Positions 1-60,179 of a stretch of 64,000 nucleotides of DNA are shown in pieces. The stretch lies in contig JAWHQI010000148.1 in assembly GCA_033032865.1 (NCBI GenBank), positions 4,359,501-4,423,500 of the forward strand. The letters run 5' to 3'. Numbering within the stretch: the stretch's first letter is position 1; each line of letters opens with the position of its first letter. This DNA comes from Dactylorhiza incarnata (taxonomy: Eukaryota; Streptophyta; Magnoliopsida; Asparagales; Orchidaceae). The notes under the pieces were generated by a model. It worked only from the letters and a program-made list of their open reading frames with translations, was not told where the DNA came from and searched no databases. The position numbers and the translations under genes are program-made.

Positions 1-2060
1 ATCGTGGTTCAGCGAGGTAGGCGGAATGGTGGTGTTGCGCTCGGGATAGACTCAAGATTCCAGATCAGGTCAATGCGCACGACCATTGTCCTCTTAGCGC
101 ACGACCAGTGAGCGTGCGCCAATGATCGTGCGTAACCCGCAAAGAATCGGAGTTCTGTCCCGGCTTATGCGCACGACCATTGTCCTCTTCGCGCACGACC
201 AGTGATCGTGCGCCAGCGATCGTGCGTTAATTCAGAAGAGAATCGAGTTTTGTCTCGGACAGTGCGCACGACCATTTCCCTCTTCGCGCACGACCAGTGA
301 TCGTGCGCCAGCGATCGTGCGCCCTGTTTATTCTGTTCCGCGATTTTGAGCGGAGAAGAAGATCGGACCGTCCAAATCTTTTGGGATTTGATCCAACGGC
401 TAGGTTTAGTTGCGGGAGACCTTTAGGGCTGATGAGAGGGGGTTAAACCTCATATTCTCTAAGTCATTCTCTCTCCAAACCCTAGAGAAAGAAGGAGGAG
501 CCAAGGAAGAAGAAGGGAGATTCCGCCATTGACGGAGCTCCGGAGCTCCGTTTCGCGAACCGTTTCCAGATCTGGAGAGTGCAGCCCGGTGCGGTCATTT
601 CCCTCCGTCTAGAATCTCGGATCCATGGCGAAAAAGAACGCTCCTAGGGTAACGATTTCTTCTCCCGTTGTTTGGACTTGTCTTTTGTCCTCTCCTTCGT
701 TTCTCTATGCTTGCATGAGGGATCCCTTTCACCAAATGGGTGAAGTGTAGGATTCCCTCAAGTTCTCCGGAACTCCGGGTCGATTGTGTCCGTCCCCGGC
801 ATATTGCATGTAGAAAATCCGGTAGTCGTGCGGATTTAGGCATTTTGTGTGAAGCTTATTCGTGGCCGTGAGCCCGAATCGGTGATGCTTGGATTGCGAC
901 GTTGCATTTAGGTTAAGCCTAGAATGCGTGCCGGAGAATGACTCCGTGAAATCATCTATAGTAGTGCGGGATTTAAGTGTAGGCGTCTTGTGAAGATCCT
1001 AACGAAAGCTCCATGCTTTGAGATTGGATGAAGGCAAACCTTCACCGCGAAATTGTTGCGGAGCGTTTTATACCTCCCCTTTTTGAGTATTTGTGAATCC
1101 TAGATCCTTGTGAAGGGATTAGGTGCGTAGCTTATCTTTGAGTAGCACTTGAAGGTGCTAAACCCTTACGGGCCGAGGAGAAGCCGTACCCGCGTCGTGC
1201 GACAGATCGCGACGATTAGAGTACGGGCAAAGCTAAACCGAACCCGTTTCCATGCAGATCGGTAAGAGGTCCCTACCTCATGTAGCCGTGTGATCATGGG
1301 AGAGGTCGTGGAAGGTGGTTTACCTAAACCGACCAAAAGCTCTTTTTCCCACATAAGGCGATGGCCCTTACGGTGGAGTGTTTGTGGAATTGATGTTGTT
1401 AGCCTCATGCGGTTGTTTAGGCGGTTGCGGGGAACCTTCGGGTGAACCCAACCAACATCATGTGCATACCTAGGTTCCCTCCTTTTTGATGCTCAACCTA
1501 GAAGATTGAATGTGCTTGAAACCTCACCTTGTGTAGTTGCACTTTCTTTATATTAGTACTTGTGCTAGTGTGGCTTGCTTGCAGGGTAGAATCTCCGCCA
1601 CCCCGGGAAAGGGGGGGGGGGGGTCGTTATAATTTGGTCAGCTGTGCTGACCGTTACCTTGTTTGCCACCGTTTGGTGGAATGTTCTTATGCAGGTGCAG
1701 GTGAGCCTAGCGGGAAATAGCGGGCGGTGGCCCCTTTTGCTGAGTTGGCCCTTGAAGGCCAGCCTCTTTTTTTAGCTTTCTCATGTATTGCCGGCCTGCG
1801 TGCCGATGTATGTTTTGGAGTTTTGGTACATTTGTTAAATGTAAGGCCTTAAGGCCATAACTCTCTTCTTGGTTTCATTCCTATAATAGTGGACAATTCT
1901 AATGGTAATGTTAAATCTTTATGCTTCCGCTAGTGTTTAGTATACTCTGTTGTAGTTTCTTTCTGTTTATCACCTTTTAACTCCTAGCTAGTGTGGTTAG
2001 TATGGCGTGGGGTCCCGGCCGGACCTACTGTTATATTATTCGTACTGGCAGGGTGTTACA
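1..2060 (+). repeat. Element 1 5' LTR (left end cut by window)
   Basis: Position 1 aligns with 7005 of the right LTR, so about 15 bp are missing. The LTR ends TGTTACA at 2060. Against the right copy it has a 9-bp duplication near 537-550, a longer poly-G run near 1611-1622 and scattered substitutions. Small reading frames inside it recur in the right LTR and are not genes. I see no convincing TATA box. Confidence 0.93.
73..325 (+). repeat. Tandem palindrome array in element 1 5' LTR
   Basis: Three tandem units of about 95 bp. Each contains an inverted repeat with arms GCGCACGA and TCGTGCGC around the 7-bp spacer CCAGTGA, at 97-119 (one arm mutated), 191-213 and 286-308, followed by a further half copy. 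The right LTR has the same array at about 7077-7328. The same arms occur in the LTRs of elements X and Y. Confidence 0.9.
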
Positions 2061-2063
2061 ATT

Positions 2064-2075
2064 TGGTATCGGACT
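2064..2075 (+). other. Element 1 primer binding site (tRNA-iMet-like)
   Basis: TGGTATCGGACT starts three bases after the LTR end. It matches the usual plant iMet site TGGTATCAGAGC at most positions; one change is a substitution within the ATCAG core. Confidence 0.75.
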
Positions 2076-2099
2076 TAAGGCGTCGATCCGTAGTTTAGC

Positions 2100-2134
2100 G
2101 AATTCGGGACGAATTCCTTTTAAGGGGTGGTGCG
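2100..2134 (+). other. Polypurine-tract-like copy in the element 1 leader
   Basis: About 35 bp after the PBS the leader reads through GGGACGAATTCC then TTTTAAGGGGTGG, closely matching the segment before the 3' LTR at about 6959-6988 (GGGACGAAATTC then TTTTAAGGGGAGTGG). This looks like a displaced copy of the 3' polypurine region next to the 5' LTR. Confidence 0.6.
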
Positions 2135-2286
2135 CACGGGTTGTGCATTCACCTAAAACGACAAAAACTAATAAGAATGTCCACTTAGGAATGAAAAGAA
2201 AACATACTTGTTTGCGGAACCTGAGCGTTCCATGATTGATGTTTGATATGTTTTGGGTCACTAAATTGTGCTTTGCATGATTATAG

Positions 2287-6989: not shown

Positions 6990-9053
6990 TGTAACACCCC
7001 AAAGATCGTGGTTCAGCGAGGTAGGCGGAATGGTGGTGTTGCGCTCGGGATAGGCTCAAGATTCCAGATCAGGTCAATGCGCACGACCATTGTCCTCTTA
7101 GCGCACGACCAGTGAGCGTGCGCCAATGATCGTGCGTAACCCGCAAAGAATCGGAGTTCTGTCCCGGCTTATGCGCACGACCATTGTCCTCTTCGCGCAC
7201 GACCAGTGATCGTGCGCCAGCGATCGTGCGTTAATTCAGAAGAGAATCGAGTTCTGTCTCGGACAGTGCGCACGACCATTTCCCTCTTCGCGCACGACCA
7301 GTGATCGTGCGCCAGCGATCGTGCGCCCTGTTTATTCTGTTCCGCGATTTTGAGCGGAGAAGAAGATCGGACCGTCCAAATCTTTTGGGATTTGATCCAA
7401 CGGCTAGGTTTAGTTGCGGGAGACCTTTAGGGCTGATGAGAGGGGGTTAAACCTCATATTCTCTAAGTCATTCTCTCTCCAAACCCTACAGAAAGAAGGA
7501 GGAGCCAAGGAAGAAGAAGGGAGATTCCGCCATTGACGGAGCTCCGTTTCGCGAACCGTTTCCAGATCTGGAGAGTGCAGCCCGGTGCGGTCATTTCCCT
7601 CCGTCTAGAATCTCGGATCCATGGCGAAAAAGAACGCTCCTAGGGTAACGATTTCTTCTCCCGTTGTTTGGACTTGTCTTTTGTCCTCTCCTTCGTTTCT
7701 CTATGCTTGCATGAGGAATCCCTTTCACCAAATGGGTGAAGTGTAGGATTCCCTCAAGTTCTCCGGAACTCCGGGTCGATTGTGTCCGTCCCCGGCATAT
7801 TGCATGTAGAAAATCCGGTAGTCGTGCGGATTTAGGCATTTTGTGTGAAGCCTATTCGTGGCCGTGAGCCCGAATCGGTGATGCTTGGATTGCGACGTTG
7901 CATTTAGGTTAAGCCTAGAATGCGTGCCGGAGAATGACTCCGTGAAATCATCTATAGTAGTGCGGGATTTAAGTGTAGGCGTCTTGTGAAGATCCTAACG
8001 AAAGCCCCATGCTTTGAGATTGGATGAAGGCAAACCTTCACCGCGAAATTGTTGCGGAGCGTTTTATACCTCCCCTTTTTGAGTATTTGTGAAGCCTAGA
8101 TCCTTGTGAAGGGATTAGGTGCGTAGCTTATCTTTGAGTAGCACTTGAAGGTGCTAAACCCTTACGGGCCGAGGCGAAGCCGTACCCGCGTCGTACGACA
8201 GATCGCGACGATTAGAGCACGGGCAAAGCTAAACCGAACCCGTTTCCATGCAGATCGGTAAGAGGTCCCTACCTCATGTAGCCGTGTGATCATGGGAGAG
8301 GTCGTGGAAGGTGGTTTACCTAGACCGACCAAAAGCTCTTTTTCCCACATAAGGCGATGGCCCTTACGGTGGAGTGTTTGTGGAATTGATGTTGTTAGCC
8401 TCATGCGGTTGTTTAGGCGGTTGCGGGGAACCTTCGGGTGAACCCAACCAACATCATGTGCATACCTAGGTTCCCTCCTTTTTGATGCTCAACCTAGAAG
8501 ATTGAATGTGCTTGAAACCTCACCTTGTGTAGTTGCACTTTCTTTATATTAGTACTTGTGCTAGTGTGGCTTGCTTGCAGGGTAGAATCTCCGCCACCCC
8601 GGGAAAGGGGTGGGGTCGTTATAATTTGGTCAGCTGTGCTGACCGTTACCTTGTTTGCCACCGTTTGGTGGAATGTTCTTATGCAGGTGCAGGTGAGCCT
8701 AGCGGGAAATAGCGGGCGGTGGCCCCTTTTGCTGAGTTGGCCCTTGAAGGCCAGCCTCTTTTTTTTAGCTTTCTCATGTATTGCCGGCCTGCGTGCCGAT
8801 GTATGTTTTGGAGTTTTGGTACATTTGTTAAATGTAAGGCCTTAAGGCCATAACTCTCTTCTTGGTTTCATTCCTATAATAGTGGACAATTCTAATGGTA
8901 ATGTTAAATCTTTATGCTTCCGCTAGTGTTTAGTATACTCTGTTGTAGTTTCTTTCTGTTTATCACCTTTTAACTCCTAGCTAGTGTGGTTAGTATGGCG
9001 TGGGGTCCCGGCCGGACCTACTGTTATATTATTCGTACTGGCAGGGTGTTACA
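6990..9053 (+). repeat. Element 1 3' LTR
   Basis: 2064 bp, TGTAACACC to TGTTACA, nearly identical to the left LTR and carrying the same palindrome array at about 7077-7328. Confidence 0.95.
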
Positions 9054-9588: not shown

Positions 9589-9592
9589 GGTG

Positions 9593-11224: not shown

Positions 11225-11232
11225 CTCTTTTA

Positions 11233-16370: not shown

Positions 16371-16812
16371 GTACACGCCCAAGGTCACGGGCGTGACCAA
16401 GGGGCGTGACAGCCTAGATGTGTTCCAGACCCGATTCTGCTACCCCGGGAGCATTCCGTGAAGATTCACCAAGTACACGCCTCAGGTCACAGGCGTGACT
16501 AAGGGCGTGACCCAATGTCACGGCCGCGACCCGCCACCAGCAGCAGAAGCGCAATGCCATGTCAGTTCAAATTACACGCCCTCGGTCACGGGCGTGATCG
16601 AGGGCGTGACATCCAGCCACGGGAGTGACTCGTCCCGCGCTCTTTCCCGCCGAAAGCTTTCCGCCAGCAGCCTGTTTTGAAGATTACACGCCCTAGGTCA
16701 TGGTCGTGACCTAGGGCGTGATGCGCACGTAACACCCACAATTACTCCAGAAGGCGCCCTCTCCGTTGCTGCTTCGAACACGCCCTTGGTCACGGGCGTG
16801 ACCAAGGGCGTG
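16371..16812 (+). repeat. Palindrome array in element 2 5' LTR
   Basis: About five copies, ~100 bp apart, built on arms CACGCCC and GGGCGTG, at about 16372, 16474, 16573, 16685 and 16779. Several extend into ~34-bp near-perfect palindromes. The variable inner bases change together on both arms: CTTGG with CCAAG, CTAGG with CCTAG, CTCGG with TCGAG. The 3' LTR has the same series at about 22340-22775. Confidence 0.88.
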
Positions 16813-16830
16813 TAACACCAAATTTTCAGC

Positions 16831-22169: not shown

Positions 22170-23783
22170 TGATGAGTAGTTTTATACTAATCCTTTAGTA
22201 TAGCTTTAATATATTTTTAATATGAAATTATATAAATTATATGAATTATATCATATAAATATTTCCATTTTGATTTCATGAACTAACTTAAGTTCATTTT
22301 ATATTTTCAGGTTTTCTCGGCACTTTTGAGAAAAATTCCAAAGTACATGCCCAAGGTCACGGGCGTGACAGCCTAGATGTGTTCCAGACCCGATTCTGCC
22401 ACCCCGGGAGCATTCGTGAAGATTTGTCAAGTACACGCACCAGGTCACGGGCGTGACCAACGACGTGACCCAATGTCACGGCCGTGACTCGCCACCAGCA
22501 GCAGAAGTGCAATGCCACGTCAATTAAAATTACACGCCATCGGTCACGGGCGTGACATCCAGTCACGGGCGTGACTCGTCCCGCGCTCTTTATTGCCAAA
22601 AGCTTCCCGCCAGCAGTCTGTTTTAAAGATTACACGCCCTAGGTCACAGGTGTGACCTAGGGCGTGACGCGCACGTAACGCCCGCAAATTACTCCAGAAG
22701 ACGCCCTCTCCGCTGCTGCTTCGATCACGCCCCTTACACGCCCTTGGTCACGGGCGTGACCAAGGGTGTGTAACACCAAATTTTCAGCTATTTAAAGGGA
22801 GCTTCTCCAGATGATCAAGGACGATTTTTTTTTGGAGTTCTAGTTTTAGTTTGTGCACTGTTTTATCATCTTCAAGTCCTTGTACTTTTCTTTCTAATGC
22901 AATTGTAAGTTTCAATTCATTTACTTTTCTTTTCTAAGTGTAACTTTCATTTCAATAGCTTGTAATCTCAATTTCTAGTTTGTAATCTTCATTTTCAAAT
23001 CAATAAAATTAGTTTTCTTAACTTCTTATTCCCCTCTTATTTTATGACGCTCTCTGTTATTTCTGCTAATTCCTTAACCTCGATGGGTAACTAAACTACT
23101 ATTAGAACTAGATCAAGATGATCCAAGGAATGATATTCGCAATGAAATAATTAAATCTCCTTCTTCTCTTCTTTGTAATACCTAAGATTTATCCTTAATT
23201 TTATTGAATTGGGATTATATTTTTGATATATAATTCTCATTCATGTTTTCGTAATTTAGATGTCGAGAGACTCATAATTCGAATTGATCACTTAAGGATA
23301 AAGAGATTTGATTGCAACTCTTGAGAAAGGATGACATAAATCTCTCGGATTGGAGTCAAATCCAATAGAGGGGTTCATTACGTTAAAGCGAGTTTTAGGG
23401 GTTTTGATTCTAGAGCGAAAGTTCGATTGATTAACCTAATCTCAGTTGAGCGTATCCTCGAGAGAGGTACGTTTATAATTTGGGAACCTCTACGGTCAAG
23501 TAATTTATTTAAGAGAATTAGAAGTTTTATTTCTTGTATTTTTTTCCGAGGTGATTCAAAGATCGGGTGCTAGCTTTTAACCATCAAAGTAATTCTATTA
23601 GTCTTTCTAGTTTTTACTATTTGCAACCCAACTCCAAATTTCTAATTGATAAAATAATAGAGATTTTCTGAAGTAAAAGTATTCAACCGCCCCGAGTCTA
23701 ATACGACCTTGGTTTTATAACCTATACTAATTTCGATATGGTACACTTGCCGTTATCGTTTGCGGATATAGTTTTGCACATCA
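22170..23783 (+). repeat. Element 2 3' LTR
   Basis: 1614 bp, TGATGAGTAG to CACATCA, about 95% like the 5' LTR by eye, with a deletion within the palindrome array near 22540-22580. Confidence 0.9.
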
Positions 23784-23828: not shown

Positions 23829-24609
23829 TGTCACAACCCACATTTTCTCTGAATTTAGGAATATCAGGTAAGAGAAAATACGCATCATGATGCCACGTCA
23901 TGCAGGAGACAACTGCATACGCTCAGGCGGGAACCTATTACTTATTTAATCAAAACATGTTTACATGATAGGTCATCATTAGAAATCATTTATTAGGGTT
24001 TGGGGTAAGAACTGTGTCTCTCAGTTCGTGGATTAACTAGTCCACCGAGAAAATATACGTAATTGCAGTGGAAAGTACTTGATTTAGTTCACTTAAGGTC
24101 CTAAATGCACGTGATGACAGGACATAAAATAAATGATATGCACATATCTAGGCGTAGTATGAGTATAGAAAATATCTTTTGGCGACTTTAAAGATAAGGA
24201 TTTCAGTTAAAAGGAATGCAATGAGGATGAAAGAAAAGCCATTTTATAACTATAATGCACCTAGACATAAATCATTCCCAGAGAGCAAGATACACACGAT
24301 CTAAAAGTAGTGACATTTATCTGGCAAGTAAGCTATAAAGTATCAAAAGGGCACAATGGGCGTCAACAACCTGACACTAACCCATTGGCTCCAAACTAGC
24401 ATGTCTGAACACAAGAAGAAAACTAACAACAACTACCTCGCAGCAGCGGGGTAAAACAGCAACTAAAACTTCCGAATACTCTGAGCTACACCACTAGCCG
24501 CTAAGGCTCAGAACCTGAGGCATTCAATAAAACAAAGAACGTCTCAGCTAGGAATTTACAAGTGGCAGAAGAATATCAAAGAAAAACAAAGTAAACAAGG
24601 CATAAGGGG

Positions 24610-25205
24610 TTCTCGAGAGATCAAGAGCTAAGATCAAACGTTTCTCGAGAAGTTGAGGGCTAAGATCAAAGGGTTCTCGAGAGATCAAAGGCAGAGAATA
24701 GAATTCTCGAGAAATCCCAAAGGCAGGAATCAACTGATTTCTCGAGAAATCCCAAGGGCAGGAGATGAAGTTTCTCGAGAAATCCCAAAGAAGAGACCTT
24801 GATTTCTCGAGAATCCAAGGCAGGAACCTTGATTTCTCGAGAAATCCAAGGCTGGAACAACTGGTTTCTCGAGAAATCCAAGGTAGCATCCTTGATTTCT
24901 CGAGAACGCCAGGTCGTTCATCGAACGCACCGTTCGACGAATGTCGGGCCGTTCGACGAACGCCAGGCCGTTCGTCGAATGCGCCATTCGACGAACGTCG
25001 GGCCGTTCGACGAACGTCGGGCCGTTCGACGAACGTCAGGCCGTTCGTCGAATGCGCTGTTCGACGAACGTCAAGCTGTTCGTCGAACGCGCTGTTCGAC
25101 GAACGTCAGGCCATTCGACGAATGCCAGACCGTTCGACGAACGTCTTGAAGCAACTGATTTCTCGAGAAATCCAAGGCAGGATCCTTGATTTCTCGAGAA
25201 ATCCA
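24610..25205 (-). repeat. Two interleaved palindrome arrays in element 3 LTR
   Basis: About twelve copies of the palindrome TTTCTCGAGAAA recur about every 32 bp at 24610-24905 and again at 25155-25205. Between them (24910-25145) lies an array built on CGTTCGTCGAA and TTCGACGAACG. Several of these pair with a 7-bp spacer, for example 24969-24979 with 24987-24997. The frames through the array on both strands are repeat products. Confidence 0.88.
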
Positions 25206-28722: not shown

Positions 28723-29700
28723 TGTTGAAACTGATTTCTCAGCCTCTTGTGGAGCTCGGGGCCCTCACCGAAATGAGGGGCAGCTAGCTCTTACTGATCC
28801 CTCTGAGAAGGTAGACTGAAGACTAGAAAGAAAACTAAGACCTTAGTCATAGCGAGGAGGTCCCTCCACTAACCCGGAAGATCGTTGAGCGCTTCCCCTC
28901 CCAAGCCAAAGCTGGGACTCGGGCACCTTGAAGAGCTCTGGGAATGCTAACCAAAGAAAGCCCGAGGAGAGAGAAGCTGAAGTGAAGTCCTCTCCAAAGG
29001 TGCCCCTAAGGTCCTATTTATAGGTTTTCTGATATGGCCTGCCAATAGCAGGATTCCGCCTTTTGATTTTACTATACGCACCCCAAATGGGTCTGCTAAC
29101 AGCCAAACTCCGCTGTTTGGAGAGGCTAAGGGCAGACCACTAAGGGTAAAAGGGTAATTTGACCCTATCGGCTTATGAGCAAGGACCGCCTCTGGACTTC
29201 GTCGAGCTCAACATGCCTTTCGTCGAACGCAGGTTACTCCGCCGAACACGGATGAGGTTGACGGACGTCGAACGCTAAGTTGTTCGATGGACACCTCTTT
29301 ATTGGGCAGAGGTCTCTTCTACTGGCGACCTGCGAGGTATCGGTTTGTAAGCCCCTCGCTTGGCCCAGTGTCTTGAAGATATCTGCCGAGGTCTAGGTCT
29401 CGCGACTCCTCTTGCGAGACCGTCCCTTTGGCTTTAATGAGCATAGAACACTTTGCTGACTTCTGATGATTCCGTCAAACAGGGGTGTGGTCGATGAAGC
29501 CGGGGGAGCTCGACGAACACTGGATAGTTCGTCGAATGCACCCGCGAGCGCTTGCCTCGCCGACCCTTCCCGCTCGCCCTTCAGCGAGCCCTCCGAGAGG
29601 GAAGATTTCTGGCGCTAAGGCCTCTCTTCCTTATTACCTCCTCCATCCCACTGCTCTCTTAAACCACGTTTCCTTGCCTGGCGAATATCGGGGTTGTACA
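28723..29700 (-). repeat. Element 4 3' LTR
   Basis: 978 bp. It lacks about 150 bp present in the other LTR (between GAGCAAGGA and CCGCCTCTGG at about 29190). A TATA box (minus CCTATAAATAGG) is at about 29009-29024. An inverted repeat TCGACGAAC (29510-29518) with GTTCGTCGA (29527-29535), 8-bp spacer, lies upstream of it. Confidence 0.92.
29009..29024 (-). promoter_or_regulatory. TATA box of element 4 LTR
   Basis: Minus-strand CCTATAAATAGG; conserved in the right LTR near 55241. Confidence 0.6.
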
Positions 29701-33426: not shown

Positions 33427-33508
33427 TGTTGGGAAAATGATTTCTCTTAACCCCTGAAAATGAGTCAAATATGAATTCCAAGAATGAAAAACAAGGCTAA
33501 GTAAATAT

Positions 33509-33752
33509 GCGTCGAATAGTGTTCGACGCAACGTCGAAATGTAGTCGACGTCTCTTTCAGATTAAGTCGAAGTAACTCTAGGAAGATTTCGATGTATGTG
33601 TTGTCGACATTACTCTGTTTTCTAGTCGACGCAACTAGTGAAGTCGACGCAACTAGTGAAGTCGACGCACCTTAGTTGACGCACCTTCCTTATTCACCTC
33701 TCGACGTCCAGACAGGATGTACTCGACGCTTGCGTCGAATGGCAATCGACGC
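33509..33752 (+). repeat. GCGTCGA/TCGACGC palindromes in element 5 5' LTR
   Basis: Inverted repeats with exactly 7-bp spacers at 33509-33529 (GCGTCGA, TCGACGC), 33531-33551 (ACGTCGA, TCGACGT: both outer bases changed together) and 33732-33752. Between them lie tandem copies of GTCGACGCAACTAGTGAA (33634-33670). Confidence 0.9.
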
Positions 33753-34037
33753 ACGTCGATTTATTTGACAGACTTAAATATGCGCCAGATCTCTTTCCTT
33801 CTTTCAGTAAATCTGATTTGTATGGAATAATGTTAATATTTTATAGCTGTTCTGAATCATTCTTTCCTTCTATTTGATTCTTGGCTAATCTGATTAACTC
33901 TATTTTGGATATTATTTGAAATCAGAATTCATTCTTTCCTTCTACAGAAATAAACATTATGGAAACATTTTTTCTTTCTATTCTCTCTAACTGCTAATTG
34001 ATTATCCTCCTATAGTATTATGTTGAATTAACAGAGC

Positions 34038-34863: not shown

Positions 34864-37107
34864 ATGGCACAAATCAAAGATTATGCTTCCACCAGACCAC
34901 CAATTTGCAACCTGGAAAAGTTTGCACTTTGGAAAACAAGAATTAGAATTTATTTAAACTCTATTGATGATGAATTGTTTAATGTGATCTTGACAGGTCC
35001 CCCCAAGCCATTCAGGAAGGATTCAAGTGGAAAAGTGACTGAAACACTTGTTCCAAGAGCTGAATGGACAGAAGATGAGAAGAAAGCCCAAGGACATGAT
35101 GCCAAGGCTATGAATATCCTAGTCTCAACCCTCTCAGATGAAATTTTCCAAAAGATTGCTGATTGTGAGTCAGCTAAGGAAGTATGGGAAGCTCTCACCA
35201 AAATGGTAGAGGAAAGTGCTGATGAGAAAAAGGATAGAAAGGCACTACTGATCTCCCAATATGAAAACTTCCAAAAGAAAGAAAGTGAAAGTGTTGCTGA
35301 CATGTATTCAAGATTCAGCCTCATAGTCAATGAATTGAGAACACTTGAGAAGGACATATCTCTCACTGAGATAAATGATAAATTGCTGACTTGCTTTCCT
35401 AGCTCTTGGGACTCAAGAATCTGGCCAATCAAAGACTACAGAAGTCAAAAAGAAATATCAACAGATGTTCTGTTGGGTAAATTAAAATCCTATGAACAAC
35501 TGTTGAAAACCAGAGCTGAGAAAGAAAAGGCCTCTCCACTCTCAAAAGAAAAGAGTATTGCATTGAAAGTTGTTGAAGGTGAACCATCTACTAGTGATGA
35601 GGAACTAATCAGCTTCCTGGCTAGGAAGTTCAAGAGGTGGATCAAAACAGAAGAATCCAGAGGAAGAGATTCAAAAACCAGGTATAATAAAACACCTACT
35701 AAAGAGATTATCTGTTACTCTTGCAGGAAACCTGGACATATTGCCCCAGAATGTCCAGAGAATGCTGAAATAGAAAAGGATCTGAAAAAGAAAGATCTGA
35801 AGAAAAAGGGGAAGAAGAAAGAAAGAGGCTTCATTGCAGAAGTCTGGAGTGAAACAAACTCTGAGGATAGTTCATCCTCTAAGAGTGACAATGAAGAATC
35901 TAGGCAAGAAGACCTATGCTTAATGGCCTTTGAAGACTCAAAGAATGATGATAAATCATGGAGTGAAACAGGATCAGAAGAAAGCATATCTTCTGATGAT
36001 GAAAAAGAAAAGAACCTCATTCTCATAGAGGAATCTGAGGATGAGGATGATGTAAGCATGTTTGATGAAATAGATTTTCAAAGTGATAACTTTAGAAATG
36101 ATTTTATGAGAATGTATCTAGATCAACTAAAAGCAACAAAAGAAATTAAAGATCTAAAAGAACAAATCAATGTAGCTAAAAACCAGAGAAACACAGAAAT
36201 TAAATCCTTTAAAGATTATGAATCAATAGCTAGCAGAATAGAAAGGGCTAGAATAGAAAATCAGTTCCTTAAGGATAAAGTAACCCGGGCAAAAGCCTTT
36301 GAAGAATCAATAAAAATGAGAAGCCAAACTCTTGAAGAGATCACTGAAAAACAAACAATAAGACACAAGAATCTTGGGCTAGGGGCTGATCCCTCAATCA
36401 GCCTAATTCCATCCAACAAACCTGCTTGGATGAGCCCTGTAAAATTCACTAAACCTGTCAAATTAGACAACCAAGAAAAAGAATCACAACATAAGAAAGA
36501 ACACCTCTCCAAGGAAATTGATGATACATCATATTATTCAGCTGATGACTCACAAACTTCATCTGAAGAGATAACTAAACCAAGAGAAACAACTCATAAA
36601 GAAGTAAAAACAGAAAAAGGAATAGTAAAAATCTATGAAGATTCAGTTGCGTCGACTTCATATCGACGCATGCATAATAGTGCGTCGACATCTACTCAAC
36701 GCAACCTCTCAGATGCATCGATCTCTTCTCGACGCTTAAACAAAAGTAAGTTGACTTCCAATCGACGCAACTCTTTTTACGCGTCGAAATCAGATCGACG
36801 CCACCTGGAGAAAGCGCCGAATAGAAATCGACGCGACTATCAACATGCGTCGAATCGATATCGACGCACACATATTCAGAGCAACGTAAATGTCTTCCCT
36901 TCAAAAATCTCTCATCTAAACCCCTATTCAGGACCCATTCATCCTGATCAAAATTTCTACTCTAAACAATATTCCTATCCCAATCAACACTTCTATCCTT
37001 CTCTAAAATCAAATCCTTACAACTCTAAGACAATCAAATGCTATATATGTAACAAACCCGACCACCTTGCCGAACAATGTTGGCATAATCAATCAAATTA
37101 TATGTAA
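34864..37107 (+). CDS. gag: Element 5 Gag (UBN2-like, two zinc knuckles, 11-residue repeat)
   Basis: ATG 34864 (MAQIKDYAS) follows an in-frame non-ATG extension; 747 residues. The N-terminal half is a copia-type capsid (LWKTRIRIYL, EVWEALTKM, YSRFSLIVNELRTL). A zinc knuckle CYSCRKPGHIAPEC lies near residue 286, then an acidic Ser/Glu/Asp-rich stretch and a coiled coil. A repeat of seven ASxSxRR-like heptads every 11 residues covers 36649-36867. The C-terminus has a second knuckle CYICNKPDHLAEQC. Gag makes particles and packages RNA. The ORF is intact, consistent with a young element that supplies its own Gag. Confidence 0.9.
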   Translation: MAQIKDYASTRPPICNLEKFALWKTRIRIYLNSIDDELFNVILTGPPKPFRKDSSGKVTETLVPRAEWTEDEKKAQGHDAKAMNILVSTLSDEIFQKIADCESAKEVWEALTKMVEESADEKKDRKALLISQYENFQKKESESVADMYSRFSLIVNELRTLEKDISLTEINDKLLTCFPSSWDSRIWPIKDYRSQKEISTDVLLGKLKSYEQLLKTRAEKEKASPLSKEKSIALKVVEGEPSTSDEELISFLARKFKRWIKTEESRGRDSKTRYNKTPTKEIICYSCRKPGHIAPECPENAEIEKDLKKKDLKKKGKKKERGFIAEVWSETNSEDSSSSKSDNEESRQEDLCLMAFEDSKNDDKSWSETGSEESISSDDEKEKNLILIEESEDEDDVSMFDEIDFQSDNFRNDFMRMYLDQLKATKEIKDLKEQINVAKNQRNTEIKSFKDYESIASRIERARIENQFLKDKVTRAKAFEESIKMRSQTLEEITEKQTIRHKNLGLGADPSISLIPSNKPAWMSPVKFTKPVKLDNQEKESQHKKEHLSKEIDDTSYYSADDSQTSSEEITKPRETTHKEVKTEKGIVKIYEDSVASTSYRRMHNSASTSTQRNLSDASISSRRLNKSKLTSNRRNSFYASKSDRRHLEKAPNRNRRDYQHASNRYRRTHIQSNVNVFPSKISHLNPYSGPIHPDQNFYSKQYSYPNQHFYPSLKSNPYNSKTIKCYICNKPDHLAEQCWHNQSNYM
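36649..36867 (+). repeat. Seven 33-bp repeats with palindromes inside gag of element 5
   Basis: Copies start at 36649, 36682, 36715, 36748, 36781, 36814 and 36847, exactly 33 bp apart. Each is seven bases (GCGTCGA or variant), 7-bp spacer, then TCGACGC or variant. In protein they read ASTSYRR, ASTSTQR, ASISSRR, KLTSNRR, ASKSDRR, APNRNRR and ASNRYRR. The same palindrome with the same spacer occurs in the LTR, where nothing is translated. Confidence 0.93.
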
Positions 37108-37565: not shown

Positions 37566-39273
37566 ATGTCTCCAAAGATAAATTCTGGTTTCGACATTGA
37601 CCTTGAGTCCTTCCAGGCTGCCGCAGAAAACTACAAGAGCATCATTGCTCTCTTCACAGAAGTTGGATTAGACAAACTCATCTCCACAAGGTGCAAGCTA
37701 CTGGAAACAAAGCTCACAGAGCTGCTGACTCATGTTCAGATATCTGAACAAGGAGAAATCCAGGGAACACTATATGAGACACATGTCTCAATCTCAGCAG
37801 AACATGTTAGGGCCACCTTTGAACTTCCATCAGGTATATCCTAATATCATCCTTATTTAAATGAAAAAGGGGAAGAAAATAAGTTTGAGAAGAATGACTA
37901 AATAAGTCTTAATTATCCCCCTATTAGGTGATGAATCCATTGACCTCACACCTGATGAAATCAAGCATGTGCTCTCCACCATGAAATTCTCAAAAGACAG
38001 ACCAATCCATCTGAAAAAGATAGACTTTTCAGATGAGTACAGATTGCTGGCAGATATAGTAGGGAAGATACTGCTATGCAAGATTTTAGCCCATGATGCA
38101 GTGCCCAAACAGCAGCTGAACATCATGGGGGCCCTTGTGCTGAAGAAGAAGGTGGATTGGGCCAGCTGTCTTCTCAAAATGATAGCCTCCAAATATTCCC
38201 ACAAGGAAAATGCTTATATGAGAATCATGAGTCAGGTTCTCTTCTATTCCTTCCCTGATCTCTGCAGGTCAAAAGGAATTCCTATCCCTCCTGGAAAGAG
38301 GGTGTCCATTGCCCTATTCTCCAAATGGACCAGGCAAATTCCCAAGCCTGGTTCCATCCCTGAAAATACTCCATCTCCTCCTATCTCTCCTGCTCATCCT
38401 CCTCCTTCTCAAACAGTCACATCTTCTGTCCTAGCATCATCCTCACCAATACCTCCTCAATCACCTACTCAGCCTTCTTCTATCCCTCCACCTCCTCATT
38501 CAGATACACCTCATCCAGATAATAGACTACCCTCTCCTCCTCCTCCACCATCACCTCATCATCTCTCACACCATGAACCATCTGAATCCACTGAGGCTCT
38601 CATCACCCAGTGCATACAATCCACAGCTCAAAGATTCCAAGCAATGCTAGATGAGCATTGCTCCCAGATTCATTCCTCCATCCTTCACATGCACACCCAA
38701 ATAGATGGGGTCAGTGCCTCTGTGCAAGATCTGAAGTCATCTCTCTCTTCCTCTAGAGTGACTAAGTCTTTCTTAACCTCCTTGGCCAAGAAGGTCAAGA
38801 AGGGGGAGAATCTAGATGAAAATCAGCCCTCCAATCCTAAATCTCCTTCTCACAAATCCCCTTCTTCTTCAAAATCTGACAGTCTTGCACTGCTCAAGAC
38901 AATTGGGAATGAGTTAGTACCTGAGCTCCATATTGATGAACAAACAATTGAGGTACTCAGCATAGCAAGAGAGGCTGCAGACCAAGTGGTACTACTGCAA
39001 GGGGAGGGAAGCAGAGCAGAAAATGAGGCTGAAAAGGAAGAAGGTGAGAAAGAATTGAATACTGCTATAAATCAAGAAGAAAATGAACCAGCTGCTGAAA
39101 CTGAAAAAGGAAATGAAGCTGATGCTGTGATGGCTGAAGAAGGGGCTCAGGAGTCAGGGGCAGGGGGAGCTGAGACCCAGGGGGAGCTGAGGGAATCACC
39201 TGCTACTGGGAAAGAGCAATCCACAATAGTATTCAAGAGAAAAAGAAAAACTCCTCCTACTCCTCCTGAATAA
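37566..39273 (+). CDS. Element 5 second gene: putative plant transposon protein-like, one intron
   Basis: ATG 37566. Exon 1 ends at 37833 and exon 2 starts at 37928; the 94-bp intron is phase 1 and the frame continues into LTPDEIKHVLSTM. The spliced protein is about 536 residues: an N-terminal domain (ETHVSISAEHVRATFELPSG; LLADIVGKILLCKILAHDA; MGALVLKKKVDWASCLLKM) of the kind found in many plant retroelement extra ORFs (putative plant transposon protein type), then a long Pro/Ser/His-rich linker, a helical segment and a Glu-rich tail ending in KRKRKTPPTPPE. Function unknown; a nuclear or DNA-binding role is only a guess. Confidence 0.7.
37834..37927 (+). other. Predicted 94-bp intron in element 5 second gene
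   Basis: CATCAG then GTATATCC at the 5' side, CCCTATTAG then GTGATG at the 3' side; AT-rich. Retention gives a stop after three further codons. Being on the genomic strand of the element, it should be lost if spliced RNA were reverse transcribed, so its presence implies that unspliced RNA is the template. Confidence 0.75.
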
Positions 39274-39430
39274 TACTTGAAAACAATGTTTCACATACTT
39301 TACTTTGTGATTGGTCTGAACATGAAGTTTGTTTATATATTCTCTTCTGATTGTGTGAAATCTTCATTATCTTTACAAATGCTTTGCTATGTTAATTATA
39401 TGCTAATTTCTCTCTAAGAAGGGTTAAGAC

Positions 39431-39444
39431 AAATAGGGGGAGAT
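39431..39444 (+). other. Element 5 polypurine tract
   Basis: AAATAGGGGGAGAT directly precedes TGTTGGG at 39445. Confidence 0.85.
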
Positions 39445-40768
39445 TGTTGGGAAAATGATATCTCTTAACCCCTGAAAATGAGTCAAATATGATATCCAAG
39501 AATGAAAAACAAGGCTAAGTAAATATGCGTCGAATAGTGTTCGGCGCAACGTCGAAATGTAGTCGACGTCTCTTTCAGATTAAGTCGAAGTAACTCTAGG
39601 AAGATTTCGACGTATGTGTTGTCGATGTTACTCTGTTTTCTAGTCGACGCAACTAGTGAAGTCGACGCACCTTAGTTGACGCACCTTCCTTATTCACCTC
39701 TCGACGTCCAGACAGGATGTACTCGACGCTTGCGTCGAATGGCAATCGACGTACGTCGATTTATTTGACAGACTTAAATATGCGCCAGATCTCTTTCCTT
39801 CTTTCAGTAAATCTGATTTGTATGGAATAATGTTAATATTTTATAGCCGTTCTGAATCATTCTTTCCTTCTATTTGATTCTTGGCTAATCTGATTAACTC
39901 TATTTTGGATATTATTTGAAATCAGAATTCATTCTTTCCTTCTACAGAAATAAACATTATGGAAACATTTTTTCTTTCTATTCTCTCTAACTGCTAATTG
40001 ATTATGCTCCTATAGTATTATGTTGAATTAACAGAGCTATAAATAAAAAGGAGGTCGGCAGAAAATAAACAAGAGTGATCTACCACACACATTTGAAATA
40101 GAGGAAAAGCTCCCAAGAGAAAAGAGAGAAATTGAGAAAAAGCTCTGCAGCAACATTCAAGCACTTCTTCTTCTTCTGCTTCTGAAGTCATACTGCTGCA
40201 AAATCTGATAGCTCTCACAAAGAGAGAAAGGCTGCAAATCTTCTTCTCTCTATAGAAGAAAGATTCAATTCACTTCTTGTGCTTCCAATCTTCTTGCTAG
40301 GAAGAAGATTCTTTCTTATTTTTATTTCTTCTCCTTTCTTTCTTTCTCACTTAAACATTGTAAAAGAGTTTTTAGAATCTCTCTCCAAAAAATTCAGTGT
40401 ACTGGTTCTAAGAGTCTCCTTGTCAAAAGACTCAGTTGGTTCTAAGAGTCTCCTTATCAAAAGACTCAGGGTGGTTCTAAGAGTCTCCTTATCAAAAGAC
40501 TCAGTGCAAGATAGTGAATTCCTACCAAGGGGGTAGAAGAGTGGACTACCCAAAGTTTAGGGAACCACTATATTTTCTTGTATTGTGCTGTGATTTATTT
40601 TCTTGCATTTACTTTATTTTCTTGCTTAATTCTTGTTGGTGTGTGGGAAGCTCTAATCTGTGATCATACACATATATATATTAACTTTGCACAAAATAAT
40701 TTTTAAATCTCTATTCACCCCCCCCCCCCCCTCTAGAGAATTCTAGTGAGGTTAATTGTGCACTTTCA
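39445..40768 (+). repeat. Element 5 3' LTR
   Basis: 1324 bp; differs from the 5' LTR by about a dozen substitutions, one fewer GTCGACGCAACTAGTGAA unit and two extra bases in a TA repeat. Confidence 0.95.
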
Positions 40769-47200: not shown

Positions 47201-47207
47201 ATTTATA
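47201..47207 (-). promoter_or_regulatory. TATA box of element X LTR
   Basis: Minus-strand GCCTATAAAT. The nearest palindrome edge is 33 bp upstream, the same distance as in element Y. Confidence 0.6.
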
Positions 47208-47239
47208 GGCGCTGGAATAAACAGTGCGCACAATCATTG

Positions 47240-47464
47240 GCGCACGACCAGTGGTCGTGCGCACTAGCATCCTGTGATCGTGCGCCTGTCTGGACGGAGC
47301 CTGCAAGGTAAGAAAATTATAAAAATACAATGTTCGCACGACCAGTGGCGCACGACCAGTGGTCGTGCGCACTATCGTAAGTGGTCGTGCGATAAGCCAA
47401 ACAGAACTCATAAAATGTGCGTTAAGTGCGCACGATCAGTGGCTCACGACCAGTGGTCGTGCGC
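47240..47464 (-). repeat. Palindrome array in element X 3' LTR
   Basis: Palindromes with arms GCGCACGA and TCGTGCGC and spacer CCAGTGG at 47240-47262 and 47348-47370, and one with a mutated arm at 47442-47464, plus several half sites. The right LTR has the first at 52050-52072 and a shortened series after it. Confidence 0.9.
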
Positions 47465-47749
47465 GATAGAACCAGTGATTGTGCGCAGTGTTCCTGTACA
47501 GATTTGTACCGGGAACACCTGCACGACTCCTGTTCCAGCATAACCACGAATCCTGCCACTGAAAGTGGCACTTAACGATGCATGAAAACTACTAGAGATG
47601 AATAGCAAGAAACAACACCAAAAAAGGGCCTAGAGGTGCACTTAGCAAGGAGTATCAAATATGAGTGAAAACATGTCTAAAGTGTAGTGCATTGACTAGA
47701 AAATCGGCCCAGATGAGTCCATATATGTGTATATAATTGGGACTCATCA

Positions 47750-50928: not shown

Positions 50929-50946
50929 TCCCCGGCAACGGCGCCA
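50929..50946 (-). other. Element X primer binding site
   Basis: Minus-strand TGGCGCCGTTGCCGGGGA, six bases after the 5' LTR, the Athila/Tat-type site. Confidence 0.88.
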
Positions 50947-50952
50947 AAAACT

Positions 50953-52537
50953 TGATGGCACAAATCTCGCACGCCGCTATAGGCGGTAGCTCGACTGCGG
51001 CACGAAACGGCAGTGTACCGATCGTTCAAGTAATATAAAATGGGAATGAATCCCCAAGTATCGATCTCAAAGGAACACAGTAAGGTGGAGTTTATTATCG
51101 AGGAAGGACTTGAGGTTGAAGTCCTTTAGAGCGGATGGATGCGGAAATGGGGGATTTGGTTTGCGAATAATAAAATAATATATTACAACTACTCCTATGC
51201 AATGCCGATATGCAATGCTTCGCTTGGCGGAATGGAGACTAGGCAGGCCTTGAACGCGCTGCGTCGCAAGGGCGGATGGACGAGTAGGCTAACGGAACGA
51301 ACTATGCAGGCCTTGAGCGCGCTGCTTCGTTAGGCGGGATGGAATACACGGGCCGCTATGCTACGCTTCGGTAGGCGGATGGGCGAGTAGGCTAACGGAG
51401 TGAGGGTCGTCGGCACCTCTTCGACAAGCACGCCACTAGCAATTGCTAGTGCGGCACAACACAACAAACAATCCACACCACGGGGCACACCTCAAATGAA
51501 AATATAACAAGATTACTCAATCAAATAGACATGATTTCATACTAATGTTAACAAGTAAAAGTATACTTCATCAAAATGTTAGTTCTAGCTACATATACAT
51601 CAATAAGAGAAGAATAAGGCAAGAAATCGACCGAATCCGAAGGCTCGTTGTAGATTCACGGTTGGAATCGCTGGGTTGTCAATCCGCGTCCAAGCTCGGT
51701 CCGCAACTACGTCCGGGGTAGAGAGAGCTGTCACTACTCTCCAATGAGCCCGTCTTCGTGTCACGATCTGGTAGAGGTTGCAAACTTCCTCTTGCTTGAT
51801 GGCGATGGCGGCTAAACCTTCCTTGAAGCTCTTGGATGAAGGAGGAGGCCGAGAGGATGCTCCGGCTCAAGAATGGCGTGAAGAACAAGCCCGGAGCACC
51901 TCCCGATGGTGGGCGGCGATGGAGGGGTGAAATTGGGCGGAACGGAGCAGGAAACGGCGGGCTCGGGCGGAAGAAAATCGGAGGTCCCGACCTAATTCGC
52001 GAGCAGGTCAATTTATAGGCGCTGGAATAAACAGTGCGTACGATCATTGGCGCACGACCAGTGGTCGTGCGCACTAGCATCCTGTGATCGTGCGCCTGTC
52101 TGGACGGAGCCTGCAAGGTAAGAAAATTATAAAAATACAATGTTCGCACGACCAGTGGCGCACGACCAGTGGTCGTGCGATAAGCCAAACAGAACTCATA
52201 AAATGTGCGTTAAGTGCGCACGATCAGTGGCGCACGACCAGTGATCGTGCGCGATAGAACCAGTGATCGTGCGCAGTGTTCCTGTACAGATTTGTACCGG
52301 GAACACCTGCACGACTCCTGTTCCAGCATAACCACGAATCCTGCCACTGAAAGTGGCACTTAACGATGCATGAAAACTACTAGAGATGAATAGCAAGAAA
52401 CAACACCAAAAATGGGCCTAGAGGTGCACTTAGCAAGGAGTATCAAATATGAGTGAAAACATGTCTAAAGTGTAGTGCATTGACTAGAAAATCGGCCCAG
52501 ATGAGTCCATATATGTGTATATAATTGGGACTCATCA
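50953..52537 (-). repeat. Element X 5' LTR
   Basis: 1585 bp, shorter than the 3' LTR mainly because one palindrome segment (about 25 bp near 52170) is missing. Confidence 0.92.
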
Positions 52538-52542
52538 GGCTC

Positions 52543-54947: not shown

Positions 54948-54950
54948 AAA

Positions 54951-56078
54951 TGTTGAAACTGATTTCTCGGCCTCTTGTGGAGCTCGGGGCCCTCACCGAA
55001 ATGAGGGGCAGCTAGCCCTTACTGATCCCTCGGAGAAGGTAGACTGAAGACTAGAAAGAAGACTAAGACCTTAGTCACAGCGAGGAGGTCCCTCCACTAA
55101 CCTGGAAGATCGTTGAGCGCTTCCCCTCCCAAGCCAAAGCTGGGACTCGGGCACCTTGGAGAGCTCTGGGATTGCTAACCAAAGAAAGCCTGAGGAGAGA
55201 GAAGTTGAAGTGAAGTCCTCTCCAAAGGTGCCCCTAAGGTCCTATTTATAGGTTTTCTGATATGGCCTGCCAATAGCAGGATTCCGCCTTTTGATTTTAC
55301 TATACGCACCCCAAATGGGTCTGCTAAAAGCCAAACTCCGCTGTTTGGAGAGGCTAAGGGCAGACCACTAAGGGTAAAAGGGTAATTTGACCCTATCGGC
55401 TTATGAGCAAGGAACCGTGAGAGCCTTCCTGCGAGATGCTCTCACGGGCCCTCTCGCGAATCCTGCTCGTGGTGCCTCTCCTAGGCGATCGCCCTGCGAG
55501 AACCTTGCTGGCCCCTCCTGGCGGTACCTGTCGAGGTCCGGTCTCGAGAGCCTTCCTGCGAGACCGCCTCTGGACTTCGTCGAGCCCAACACGCCTTTCG
55601 TCGAACGCAGGTTACTCTGCCGAACACGGACGAGGTTGACGGACGTCGAACACTAAGTTGTTCGTTGGACACCTCTTTACTGGGCAGAGGTCTCTTCTAC
55701 TGGCGACCTGCGAGGTATCGGTTTGTCAGCCCCTCGCTTGGCCCAGTCTCTTGAAGATATCTGCCTAGGTCTAGGTCTCGCGACTCCTCTTGCGAGACCG
55801 TCCCTTTGGCTTTAATGAGCATAGAACACTTCGCTGACTTCTGATGATTCCGTCAAACAGGGGTGTGGTCGATGAAGCCAGGGGAGCTCGACGAACACTG
55901 GAGAGTTCGTCGAACGCACCCGCGAGCGCTTGCCTCGTCGACCCTTCCCTCTCTCCCTTCAGCGAGCCCTCCGAGAGGGAAGATTTCTGCCACTAAGGCC
56001 TCTCTTCCTTATTACCTCCTCCATCCCACTGCTCTCTTAAACCGCGTTTCCTTGCCTGGCGAATATCAGGGTTGTACA
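54951..56078 (-). repeat. Element 4 5' LTR
   Basis: 1128 bp. Has the ~150 bp (about 55413-55563) missing from the other LTR, rich in CTCGCGAG and CTGCGAGA motifs, plus the TCGACGAAC/GTTCGTCGA inverted repeat near 55888-55915. Confidence 0.92.
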
Positions 56079-56900: not shown

Positions 56901-56981
56901 CTATAAGCGCGAAAAAAGAAACGAGTCTAATACAGCGAAACTAAAAGGAATCAAGACTTAATAGCTGGCTTAAGGTCTAAC
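56901..56981 (-). other. Predicted 81-bp intron between gag and protease of element 3
   Basis: Minus strand: GATCGCAG then GTTAGACC at the 5' side; pyrimidine-rich TTTCTTTTTTCGCGCTTATAG then GGAGATT at the 3' side. It is phase 1, as in element 1; after removal there is a Gly and 11 residues before LFDSGA, the same spacing as element 1. If retained, the second codon is TAG, ending Gag. Confidence 0.78.
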
Positions 56982-58210: not shown

Positions 58211-58240
58211 TTCTGCTAAAACGCAAATACCTACAATCAA

Positions 58241-58887: not shown

Positions 58888-58889
58888 AC

Positions 58890-59035
58890 TGTCACAGCCC
58901 ACATTTTTTCCGAATTTAGGAATATGAGAGTAAGAGAAAATACGCGTCATGATGTCACGTCATGCAGGAGACAACTGCAGACGCTCAGGCGGGAACCTAT
59001 TAATTATTTAATCAAAACATGTTTACATGATAGGT
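58890..59035 (-). repeat. Element 3 5' LTR, end only
   Basis: Matches 23829-23974 of the 3' LTR with about ten changes and is cut by element Y at 59035; the rest must lie beyond the window. Confidence 0.9.
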
Positions 59036-59915
59036 TGATGCGATAATTTCGGCAAGTGCACCGGTCGCGCAAGTAATAAAGTTTGGGAATATGATCCCCG
59101 AGTGTCGGTCTCTTGAGGAATGCAGGTTAGGTGAACGAATCGCGTTGTGTGACTATTGTTACACAAGCGTGAACAAACACACAAAAAGAGGTGGGTTTTG
59201 GTTGGGTTTTTCCTACTCTTAACAACAATGAAGGAAATGTGGGTCGAAAGCACCGCTTCGCAGGGCGAGATGGATGCAACGGCCGCGATACCGTGCTTCG
59301 TGAGGCGGATGGAGCGTGCTCTAGTGCGGGCAGGTGAGGGTCGCAAACACCTCTTCACAAACGTCGTTAGCTCTTGCTAACGCGGATCAAACACCTTGAG
59401 TGCGTGAGTGAGTGAGTGGATGAGTGGAGGCGAAGCGATTCACAAGCAAGTAATGATGAAAAGAGAAGAAACATTCATTTCATTTAAACCAAACATCATG
59501 ATATTCAAGTTTAAATGATTCAAAGATTACAACGAAAGGGGGAGGAAAGAGATAACCAATGGATGAAGACTAGCGGCCGTTCACGGCCGGAATGGTAGTT
59601 TGTCAAGCTACCTCCGGACTCGGGCGGACTGTGCTTCCGGTGTAGAGAAACTGTCACGATCTCTCTACGTGGTTCCGTCGTCTTCTACCTCAGGATTCCT
59701 CTTCTTCTCACTGGACTGGAGTGGAAAACAGCTGCTTGAGGGCTTGCGGATGGTGGAAGATGCTCCCAAACAATAGAGAAATGCTTGGAATGGTTGGAGA
59801 GGACGTCCCCTTGCGTAGGAGATGAAGTGGAGGTGTCCCGGGATGGAAATCGCCCGCGTACGGACTGCCAATCCCGCTCCCGGCGGCTCGATCCCGCCCT
59901 AATTCGTGATCAGGA

Positions 59916-59923
59916 TATATATA
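59916..59923 (-). promoter_or_regulatory. TATA box of element Y LTR
   Basis: Minus-strand CCTATATATATCC, 33 bp downstream of the nearest palindrome. Confidence 0.55.
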
Positions 59924-59955
59924 GGCGCTGAACTGAATACTGCGCACGGTCATTG

Positions 59956-60179
59956 GCGCACGACCAGTGGTCGTGCGCACTGGAGTTCTGCGATCGTGCG
60001 GGTTGCCTGGGCGGAGCCTGAAATGAAAGAAATTTATAAAATACATGTTCGCACGATCAGTGGCGGACGACCAGTGGTCGTGCGCACTATCGTCAATGGT
60101 CGTGCGATAAGCCAAACAGAACTCATAAAATGAGCGTTAAGTGCGCACGATCAGTAGCGCACGACCAGTGGTCGTGCGC
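59956..60179 (-). repeat. Palindrome array in element Y LTR
   Basis: Arms GCGCACGA and TCGTGCGC, spacer CCAGTGG, at 59956-59978, 60063-60085 (one substitution) and 60157-60179, with additional half sites. Confidence 0.9.

Follow-up and report, generated by a model that had tools for sequence, protein, structure and literature searches.

Arrays of CpG half-sites in the long terminal repeats of several retrotransposon lineages of the orchid Dactylorhiza incarnata

Long terminal repeats (LTRs) of several retrotransposon lineages in the orchid Dactylorhiza incarnata carry arrays of short CpG-containing half-sites, and in two classes of these half-sites the inward-facing pairs mostly keep a gap of 7 bp throughout the genome. 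The arrays were followed up from a stretch of 64,000 nucleotides (GenBank assembly GCA_033032865.1, contig JAWHQI010000148.1, labelled C543 here, positions 4359501-4423500), called the window below, in which self-comparison, open reading frames (ORFs) and Pfam matches reveal LTR elements nested in one another, designated E1 to E5, X and Y (Table 1). A sequence-only reading of the window had claimed that every LTR family in it carries an array of CpG inverted repeats with a 7-8 bp spacer, and had suggested binding sites for a dimeric factor or hairpin sources of small RNA. The observation is partly confirmed: the palindrome arrays are real, with corrections. Their architecture occurs genome-wide, extends to other lineages the kind of motif known from Sireviruses as RM boxes, follows a gap rule in two classes and is accompanied by evidence of module exchange. 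We consider it probable that the arrays are enhancer modules of the U3 region, that their CpG half-sites are bound as dimers by one or more host transcription factors, and that they have been exchanged between lineages.

Excess of CpG palindromes over chance

All the repeats quoted in the sequence-only reading are present in the window. Inverted repeats were counted there as maximal arms of at least 7 bp containing a CpG, with a spacer of 0-30 bp, against dinucleotide shuffles. The 12 LTR copies (18,978 bp) contain 103 such repeats and their shuffles 7.9, which bears out the expected excess over shuffled LTRs; the non-LTR DNA (11 of 12 pieces, 44,978 bp) contains 41 and its shuffles 12.2. With spacers of 7-8 bp alone, the counts are 17 against 0.3 expected in the LTRs and 6 against 0.65 outside them. 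Most of the non-LTR excess lies in 9054-16186 (14 against 0.8), in the internal region of E5 (7 against 0.3) and in 17829-22169 (5 against 1.05). A strict restriction to LTRs is ruled out, E5 and its relatives L017 and L023 having arrays in their internal regions as well.

Since the window was picked for its palindromes, random loci alone provide a fair sample. In 18 such loci (179 kb, of which 5 kb N), CpG arms of at least 8 bp formed 120 inverted repeats against 11.3 expected from three shuffles, and the feature is therefore genome-wide. When all 6-mer arms of the window and the random loci were ranked, leaving out arms with two or fewer kinds of letter, CpG occurred in 26 of the top 30 palindromic arms. 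Direct repeats of CpG arms of at least 8 bp are as frequent as inverted ones (84 against 85 in the window, 168 against 120 in the random sample); the inverted repeats taken as the unit in the first reading do exist, but the half-sites stand in both orientations and not only as inverted pairs.

A fixed gap in two classes of half-site

A spacer of 7-8 bp is rejected as a general rule of CpG palindromes: in the random loci the histogram for all of them peaks at spacers 0-3 (counts of 11, 8, 12 and 10), with 2 at spacer 7 and 5 at spacer 8. Arms without CpG show no peak at spacer 7 in the sample. The rule is sharp for two classes only, CGTCGA and GCACGA, and for these a 7-bp spacer predominates across the genome. 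For arms that end in CGA, spacer 7 is the most frequent: its 37 pairs represent 10 distinct locus-arm combinations and come from 7 of 19 sources, whereas no other spacer exceeds 7 combinations or 5 sources. Genome-wide counts, which cover 3.27 Gb in 3,184 contigs and are all lower bounds, gave 186,861 matches of CGTCGA-N0-25-TCGACG and 5,963 of its reversed control. The exact form CGTCGA-N7-TCGACG was matched 121,091 times (reversed control 44); N7 thus makes up 65% of the pairs with a spacer of 0-25 and reaches 46 times the mean of the other 25 spacers (2,631 each). The letters within the spacer vary, 28 different heptamers being found in 35 rows among the matches listed, after repeated rows of one contig (C4) had been collapsed. 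For the second class, GCACGA-N0-25-TCGTGC was matched 162,190 times (control 2,259), with at least 90,117 at N7; among the matches listed, 26 of 43 rows were N7 and 11 were N21, the latter because they reach the second site of an array unit.

Anatomy and position of the arrays

Distances within array units are measured start-to-start, and signs give the orientation of the half-site. The E1 and X/Y arrays are built from a four-site unit (- 22 - 15 + 14 +) of TCGTGCGC half-sites, some units being incomplete, and the same unit is present at the loci L009, L022 and L001. Its inverted pair, GCGCACGA-N7-TCGTGCGC, occurs 10 times in the window; CCASTGG, the 7 bp between the arms in several of the X/Y copies, pairs with itself, which leaves arms of 11 and a spacer of 1. 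E2 has a -15+12+ pattern of GGGCGTG and palindromes with arms up to 17 and a spacer of 2, and CACGCCC-N8-GGGCGTG occurs four times in the window. The E3 units are near-palindromes in themselves. Elsewhere among the window counts, TTTCTCGAGAAA occurs six times, CGTTCGTCGAA-N7-TTCGACGAACG twice and TCGACGAAC-N8-GTTCGTCGA five times, three of these in the E3 array and two in the E4 LTRs. Arrays do occur in several lineages, but to extend them to every LTR family was too general. The inverted repeats of E4 are weak (3 and 4 per LTR, matched in 2 of 50 and 0 of 50 shuffles). A clearer signal in E4 comes from TTCGTCGAA-like sites spaced 19 bp apart, with up to two mismatches allowed: they form 5 and 4 pairs, whereas 500 shuffles gave at most 0 and 1. 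The motif is identical to the TTCGWCGAA of E3.

In E5, TCGACGCA sites alternate at 15/18 bp, and GCGTCGA-N7-TCGACGC is found five times in the window, twice in the E5 LTR and three times in the E5 internal region. The internal array has seven units at 33-bp steps within the gag frame and one more beyond the frame end. Conservation among these units is 0.84 and 0.94 in the arms, 0.61 in the spacer and 0.53 in the flanks, a contrast that is partly built in, the units having been chosen by motif match. Read in the gag frame, the palindromes of 36648-36868 give an 11-residue AS...RR pattern, and the arm codons are largely unchanged. Yet another array type, with 0-2 bp at the centre, alternates CTGTCGCC-TG-GGCGACAG and TGTCGGAA/TTCCGACA (L013:2780-3160; L008:3780-3920).

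The array had been placed upstream of the TATA box in several elements, and this was correct for E2, E5, X and Y: a TATA-like word stands 13-19 bp past the array end in the five LTRs measured (X5, X3, Y, E2 and E5). The E4 array is also upstream of such a word, at about 326 bp.

Lineages of the elements

We take E1 and E3 to be Tekay elements from their LTR ends and primer-binding site (PBS), X, Y and E2 to be Athila from their PBS, and E4 to be Tat from its second RNase H (PF13456), with domain order also considered and in each case without a tree. A chromodomain, sought in E1 and E3 to confirm Tekay, gave no match at E<=1, so this name rests on LTR ends and PBS. E3 shares 49% identity with E1 over 287 amino acids (aa) and E4 shares 35% with E1; the E1 reverse transcriptase (RT) ORF finds its highest identities, up to 81%, among proteins of another orchid, Platanthera zijinensis. 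X and Y differ from E1 in LTR ends and PBS, the E1 gag is not matched by the gag-type ORF of Y (E 2.3), and DNA similarity is limited to the array; to judge from these comparisons, X/Y and E1 are clearly different elements. Arrays also stand in elements in which no pol was found. Within the window no pol ORF was found in E2, E5, X or Y (16187-23784, 33426-40771, 46140-52537 and 58890-64000), so several of the array carriers look non-autonomous.

Table 1. Elements of the window and the arrays that they carry
Feature	Position	Strand	Content
E1	LTRs 1-2060 + 7005-9053		gag, RT, RNase H, integrase
E1 5' LTR array	68..323	+	three units: GCGCACGA -22- GCGCACGA -15- TCGTGCGC -14- TCGTGCGC, period ~95 bp
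E1 3' LTR array copy	7072..7327	+	
E2	LTRs 16187-17828 + 22170-23784		weak protease match; otherwise none
E2 5' LTR array	16374..16814	+	CACGCCC/GGGCGTG and GGTCACG/CGTGACC sites; end 18 bp before CTATTTAAAGG
E2 3' LTR array copy, diverged	22346..22770	+	LTR pair identity 91.6%
E3	3' LTR from ~23829		RNase H and integrase
E3 3' LTR array	24609..25203	-	TTCGWCGAA sites, 16/19-bp steps (24917-25145), between TTTCTCGAGAAA palindromes at ~32-bp steps
E4	LTRs 28722-29700 + 54950-56078		RT with second RNase H domain, PF13456
E4 3' LTR array	29198..29536	-	TTCGTCGAA-like sites, five pairs at 19 bp, with TCGACGAAC-N8-GTTCGTCGA
E4 5' LTR array copy	55576..55950	-	four pairs at 19 bp; upstream of CCTATAAATAGG
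E5	LTRs 33426-34769 + 39444-40771		copia-type gag
E5 5' LTR array	33508..33761	+	TGCGTCGA / TCGACGCA half-sites including CGTCGA-N7-TCGACG; end 13 bp before TTAAATATG
E5 internal array	36648..36868	+	inverted N7 half-site pairs, 33-bp period, inside gag reading frame; further sites to ~37290
E5 Sirevirus marks	38801..39444	+	AGGGGGAG at 38801, 39162, 39179, 39435
E5 3' LTR array copy	39526..39761	+	
X	LTRs 46140-47749 + 50953-52537		Athila-like PBS
X 3' LTR array	47223..47486	-	GCGCACGA / TCGTGCGC sites; end 19 bp before CCTATAAATT
X 5' LTR array	52033..52274	-	end 19 bp before CCTATAAATT
Y	3' LTR ~58890-60464		related to X; extends beyond window
Y 3' LTR array	59941..60179	-	end 19 bp before CCTATATATATCC

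Probable exchange of arrays between lineages

Three comparisons (E1 with X/Y, E1 with L026, L018 with L027) indicate that the type of array does not follow lineage. The E1 array matches those of X/Y at 72.7% over 161 bp (E 9e-14). When the linkers of 3 E1 units and 13 X/Y-type units were compared in register, in a test designed after a masked alignment had shown no excess, 5 of 5 linkers scored above the shuffled means.

The second comparison is the reverse of the first. L026 is related to E1 (integrase 73.8% identical over 1,324 bp); their LTRs start alike and are collinear again in the downstream part, R/U5 (71% over 148 bp, E 7e-15; 81% over 83 bp, E 2e-14). The interval enclosed by these homologous parts is occupied by a CGTCGA-N7 array in L026 but by a GCGCACGA array in E1, and BLAST aligns neither with the other. 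This finding of dissimilar arrays at one place in homologous LTRs, together with the architecture and rigid gap shared by several LTR lineages, would open the capture of enhancers between retrotransposon superfamilies to a direct test.

Thirdly, an exact 29-mer with an N7 site is common to L018, whose LTR pieces are 78% and 68% like E3 and whose own pol lies outside the locus, and to L027, a complete copia element with RVT_2 and without AGGGGGAG. Because L023-L027 were chosen for holding N7 sites, they show the breadth of the feature and not its frequency. L024:1446-7325 and L020:9109-10000 have long tandem repeats in common, which fill most of the interior of an LTR-like element whose repeated ends bear N7 palindromes.

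Relation to known motifs

The VANC proteins of Arabidopsis VANDAL transposons had been offered as a precedent, which does not fit well. As far as PMC5735166 describes them, the VANC21 target motifs have one orientation, are family-specific and are bound by an element-encoded protein, whereas the arrays described here have both orientations and spread across lineages rather than being confined to one family. The RM boxes of Sireviruses, unnamed in that reading, are closer. In the portions of Bousios et al. (2010, PMC2829016) devoted to them, RM boxes are palindromic, high-copy LTR motifs forming a CpG island whose mean distance upstream of TATA is 37 bp; additional internal copies precede the env-like gene, and the motifs differ between elements. 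The same portions give them a CGG-CCG core, Tnd-1 being an exception to it in Table 3, and regard them as Sirevirus-specific within Ty1/copia.

The arrays resemble RM boxes as CpG palindromes just upstream of TATA in E5 (13 bp), X/Y (19 bp) and E2 (18 bp), although not in E1 and E3, in the extra internal copies of E5 and in motifs that vary by element. They differ in their cores, which are CGTCGA, GCACGA, CACGCC and TTCGWCGAA instead of CGG-CCG, in the fixed 7-bp gap of two classes, in the evidence of exchange between lineages and in their carriers, which include the Ty3-type E1, E3, E4, X, Y and L026 and the copia element L027 without AGGGGGAG. Palindromic CpG boxes had been described as a Sirevirus peculiarity; here their architecture, combined with a rigid gap, recurs in several further LTR lineages. 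A literature search by title found no description of such arrays in Ty3 lineages or of their exchange.

E5 itself bears marks of a Sirevirus. According to the sections of PMC2829016 on these signals, the octamer of the Sirevirus polypurine tract (PPT) occurs on average four times per element and a polyC-rich signal lies on average 21 bp before the LTR end. In E5 the terminal AGGGGGAG is followed by AT/TG at the start of the 3' LTR, in agreement with a Sirevirus PPT and attachment site, and a C-run, a candidate for the polyC-rich signal, lies about 40 bp before the LTR end as against the published 21-bp average. Among ORFs of at least 250 aa, E5 has a gag (PF14223) and a 455-aa ORF only, and copia-type pol was not found; E5 may be a pol-less derivative. 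The PPTs, the AT/TG junction and the internal array upstream of the second ORF together point to a pol-less Sirevirus-like element with a different core.

Binding sites of auxin response factors (ARFs) offer another likeness, namely inverted 6-bp half-sites with a 7-bp gap and the GTCG common to TGTCGG and CGTCGA. According to the passages of PMC10690724 that treat them, ARF IR7/IR8 sites need a TGTC core half-site, whereas CGTCGA is amplified here and TGTCGA hardly: TGTCGA-N0-25-TCGACA was matched 14,831 times genome-wide (control 7,988), with N7 in 14 of 50 places among the matches listed. ARF binding sites are therefore disfavoured by the core, despite the matching gap.

What the arrays may do

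We favour the arrays as cis-regulatory modules of LTR retrotransposons, made of clustered CpG half-sites that one or more host transcription factors would bind as dimers and that would activate transcription. In the main class the half-sites face inward at the fixed gap (CGTCGA-N7-TCGACG, and GCACGA-N7-TCGTGC in E1/X/Y), and at this gap the inner CpGs are separated by 11 bp, close to one turn of the helix. Such modules would expand by tandem duplication and pass, presumably by recombination, between unrelated lineages, so that one array type recurs in unrelated lineages and relatives differ in theirs. The fixed gap, the varied spacer letters, the two orientations and the position before TATA argue for protein dimers on DNA, and the sharing of arrays across lineages for a host factor rather than one encoded by the elements. 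CGTCGA-N7-TCGACG is a short exact bait for a host factor that may activate retrotransposons in large plant genomes; if the proposal is true, the elements would spread ready-made binding sites for that factor through the genome.

Selection on the half-sites is suggested by E5 and L023, copies about 15-17% diverged, in which 13 of 200 half-site positions differ against 658 of 4,163 others (Fisher p 1.2e-4), half-sites being those with at most one mismatch in either copy, a mild bias to conservation. The internal part alone gives p 5e-4. The arrays show no deficit of CpG transitions between paired LTRs (22/340, against 21/467 outside), and a protection of the arrays from methylation finds no support. 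A bolder version would have a single dimeric host factor, or a few paralogues, read NNCGTCGA / GCACGA at a rigid 7-bp gap and serve copia and Ty3/gypsy elements alike as shared enhancer input, with the arrays as promoter cassettes moving between superfamilies and hundreds of thousands of sites spread genome-wide. In this version binding might even depend on methylation, so that silenced elements would be read, because the half-sites carry CpGs and a methylated CG resembles the TG of known half-sites such as the ARF core TGTC. We regard the bolder version as tentative and less likely than not.

Several results weigh against enhancer modules exchanged between lineages. Among the five linkers compared between E1 and X, no more than two outscored every one of the 200 shuffles, and the masked-linker local alignments of E1 with X5, Y, L009 and L022 scored 19, 18, 26 and 22 against shuffle means of about 20. 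The LTR part of E5 and L023 taken alone is non-significant (7/80 against 187/1,229, p 0.14), and the internal array of E5 lies mostly within a coding frame. A position close before TATA is missing in two elements: E1 contains none of the four TATA-like words searched for, and in E3 the TATA-like word, at 25710, has the array on its downstream side, about 500-1,100 bp away. Spacings differ in E2, E3, E4 and the XhoI-type arrays. Large element families dominate the genome counts, so that the 121,091 exact matches are not as many independent events, and these counts leave unstated how several gaps from one start are treated. Lastly, in a set of 36 N7 sites from 9 loci, which are non-independent, the spacer ends pair in 20, 26 and 18 of 36 sites (expected 34%, 32% and 28%), as hairpins or palindrome copying would produce and a free spacer would not predict.

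This pairing favours the best of the rivals, in which the palindromes act as hairpins of RNA or extruded DNA, either as a source of small RNAs of the host or as a structural signal in RNA, with motifs fixed by array duplication. In the same 36 sites the outer arm positions beside CGTCGA are paired in 28, 28, 17 and 16 (expected 37%, 47%, 28% and 23%), and 8 of 10 array pieces fold strongly as RNA (z -2.9 to -7.0), the other two weakly (z -1.8 and -1.6). Strongly folding clusters in the LTR regulatory region recall the LTR palindromes of maize Sireviruses, which are reported to be small-RNA hotspots (Bousios et al. 2016, as summarized in parts of PMC5311732 and PMC10760457); Ty3-type LTRs carry palindromes here, whereas maize Ty3 elements generally have no obvious peak of such structures in the relevant part of PMC10760457. 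Hairpins require no fixed 7-nt gap, however, and N7 stands far above all other spacers taken together as a mean; direct repeats match inverted ones in frequency; and an array just upstream of a TATA-like word, as in the five LTRs, would be carried by transcripts from there only in its 3' LTR copy. Covariation and strong folding keep hairpins in consideration, as an unlikely explanation, and siRNA derived from them may be either cause or side effect. The dimeric factor of the sequence-only reading is the better supported of its two suggestions, through the fixed gap, the varied spacer and the conserved half-sites, in its host-encoded and not its element-encoded form.

The arrays could also be a functionless by-product of slippage during replication or reverse transcription and of palindrome-forming errors, spread with the elements. 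Their tandem structure, the equal numbers of direct and inverted repeats and the high counts that amplification of large families yields without function agree with this; we nevertheless find it improbable, given half-sites conserved relative to their surroundings in E5 and L023, a gap that stays the same while outer arms and spacers differ from family to family, and arrays placed before TATA-like words. Least probable are VANC-like anti-silencing or activator proteins encoded by the elements and binding arrays that co-evolve with them: motifs do build up in tandem in non-coding element parts as at VANC targets, in the relevant part of PMC5735166, and the 455-aa ORF of E5 belongs to no Pfam family, but the array type is independent of lineage, X, Y, E2 and E5 have no pol ORF in the window, the VANC21 motifs of that account are single-oriented and rare elsewhere while the arrays are bidirectional and shared, and CpG transitions give no sign of methylation protection.

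Further observations on the window

The nesting of the elements leaves traces of their insertion. A 607-bp tandem duplication (45265-46139, 52538-52883) harbours X in its second copy; its first copy is intact and represents the empty site, showing a 5-bp target duplication of X. E4 is inserted into the internal region of E3: the locus L015:1306-6389 is unbroken where the window splits (26058-28722, 56076-58492). Inside E4, about 7.7 tandem copies of a 96-bp unit lie in an open frame (41409-42183), and a related 95-bp array occurs in L016. Outside the LTRs named in the window, a distinct cluster of TTCGGTTTTA / AACCGAAC palindromes occupies 10566-11171.

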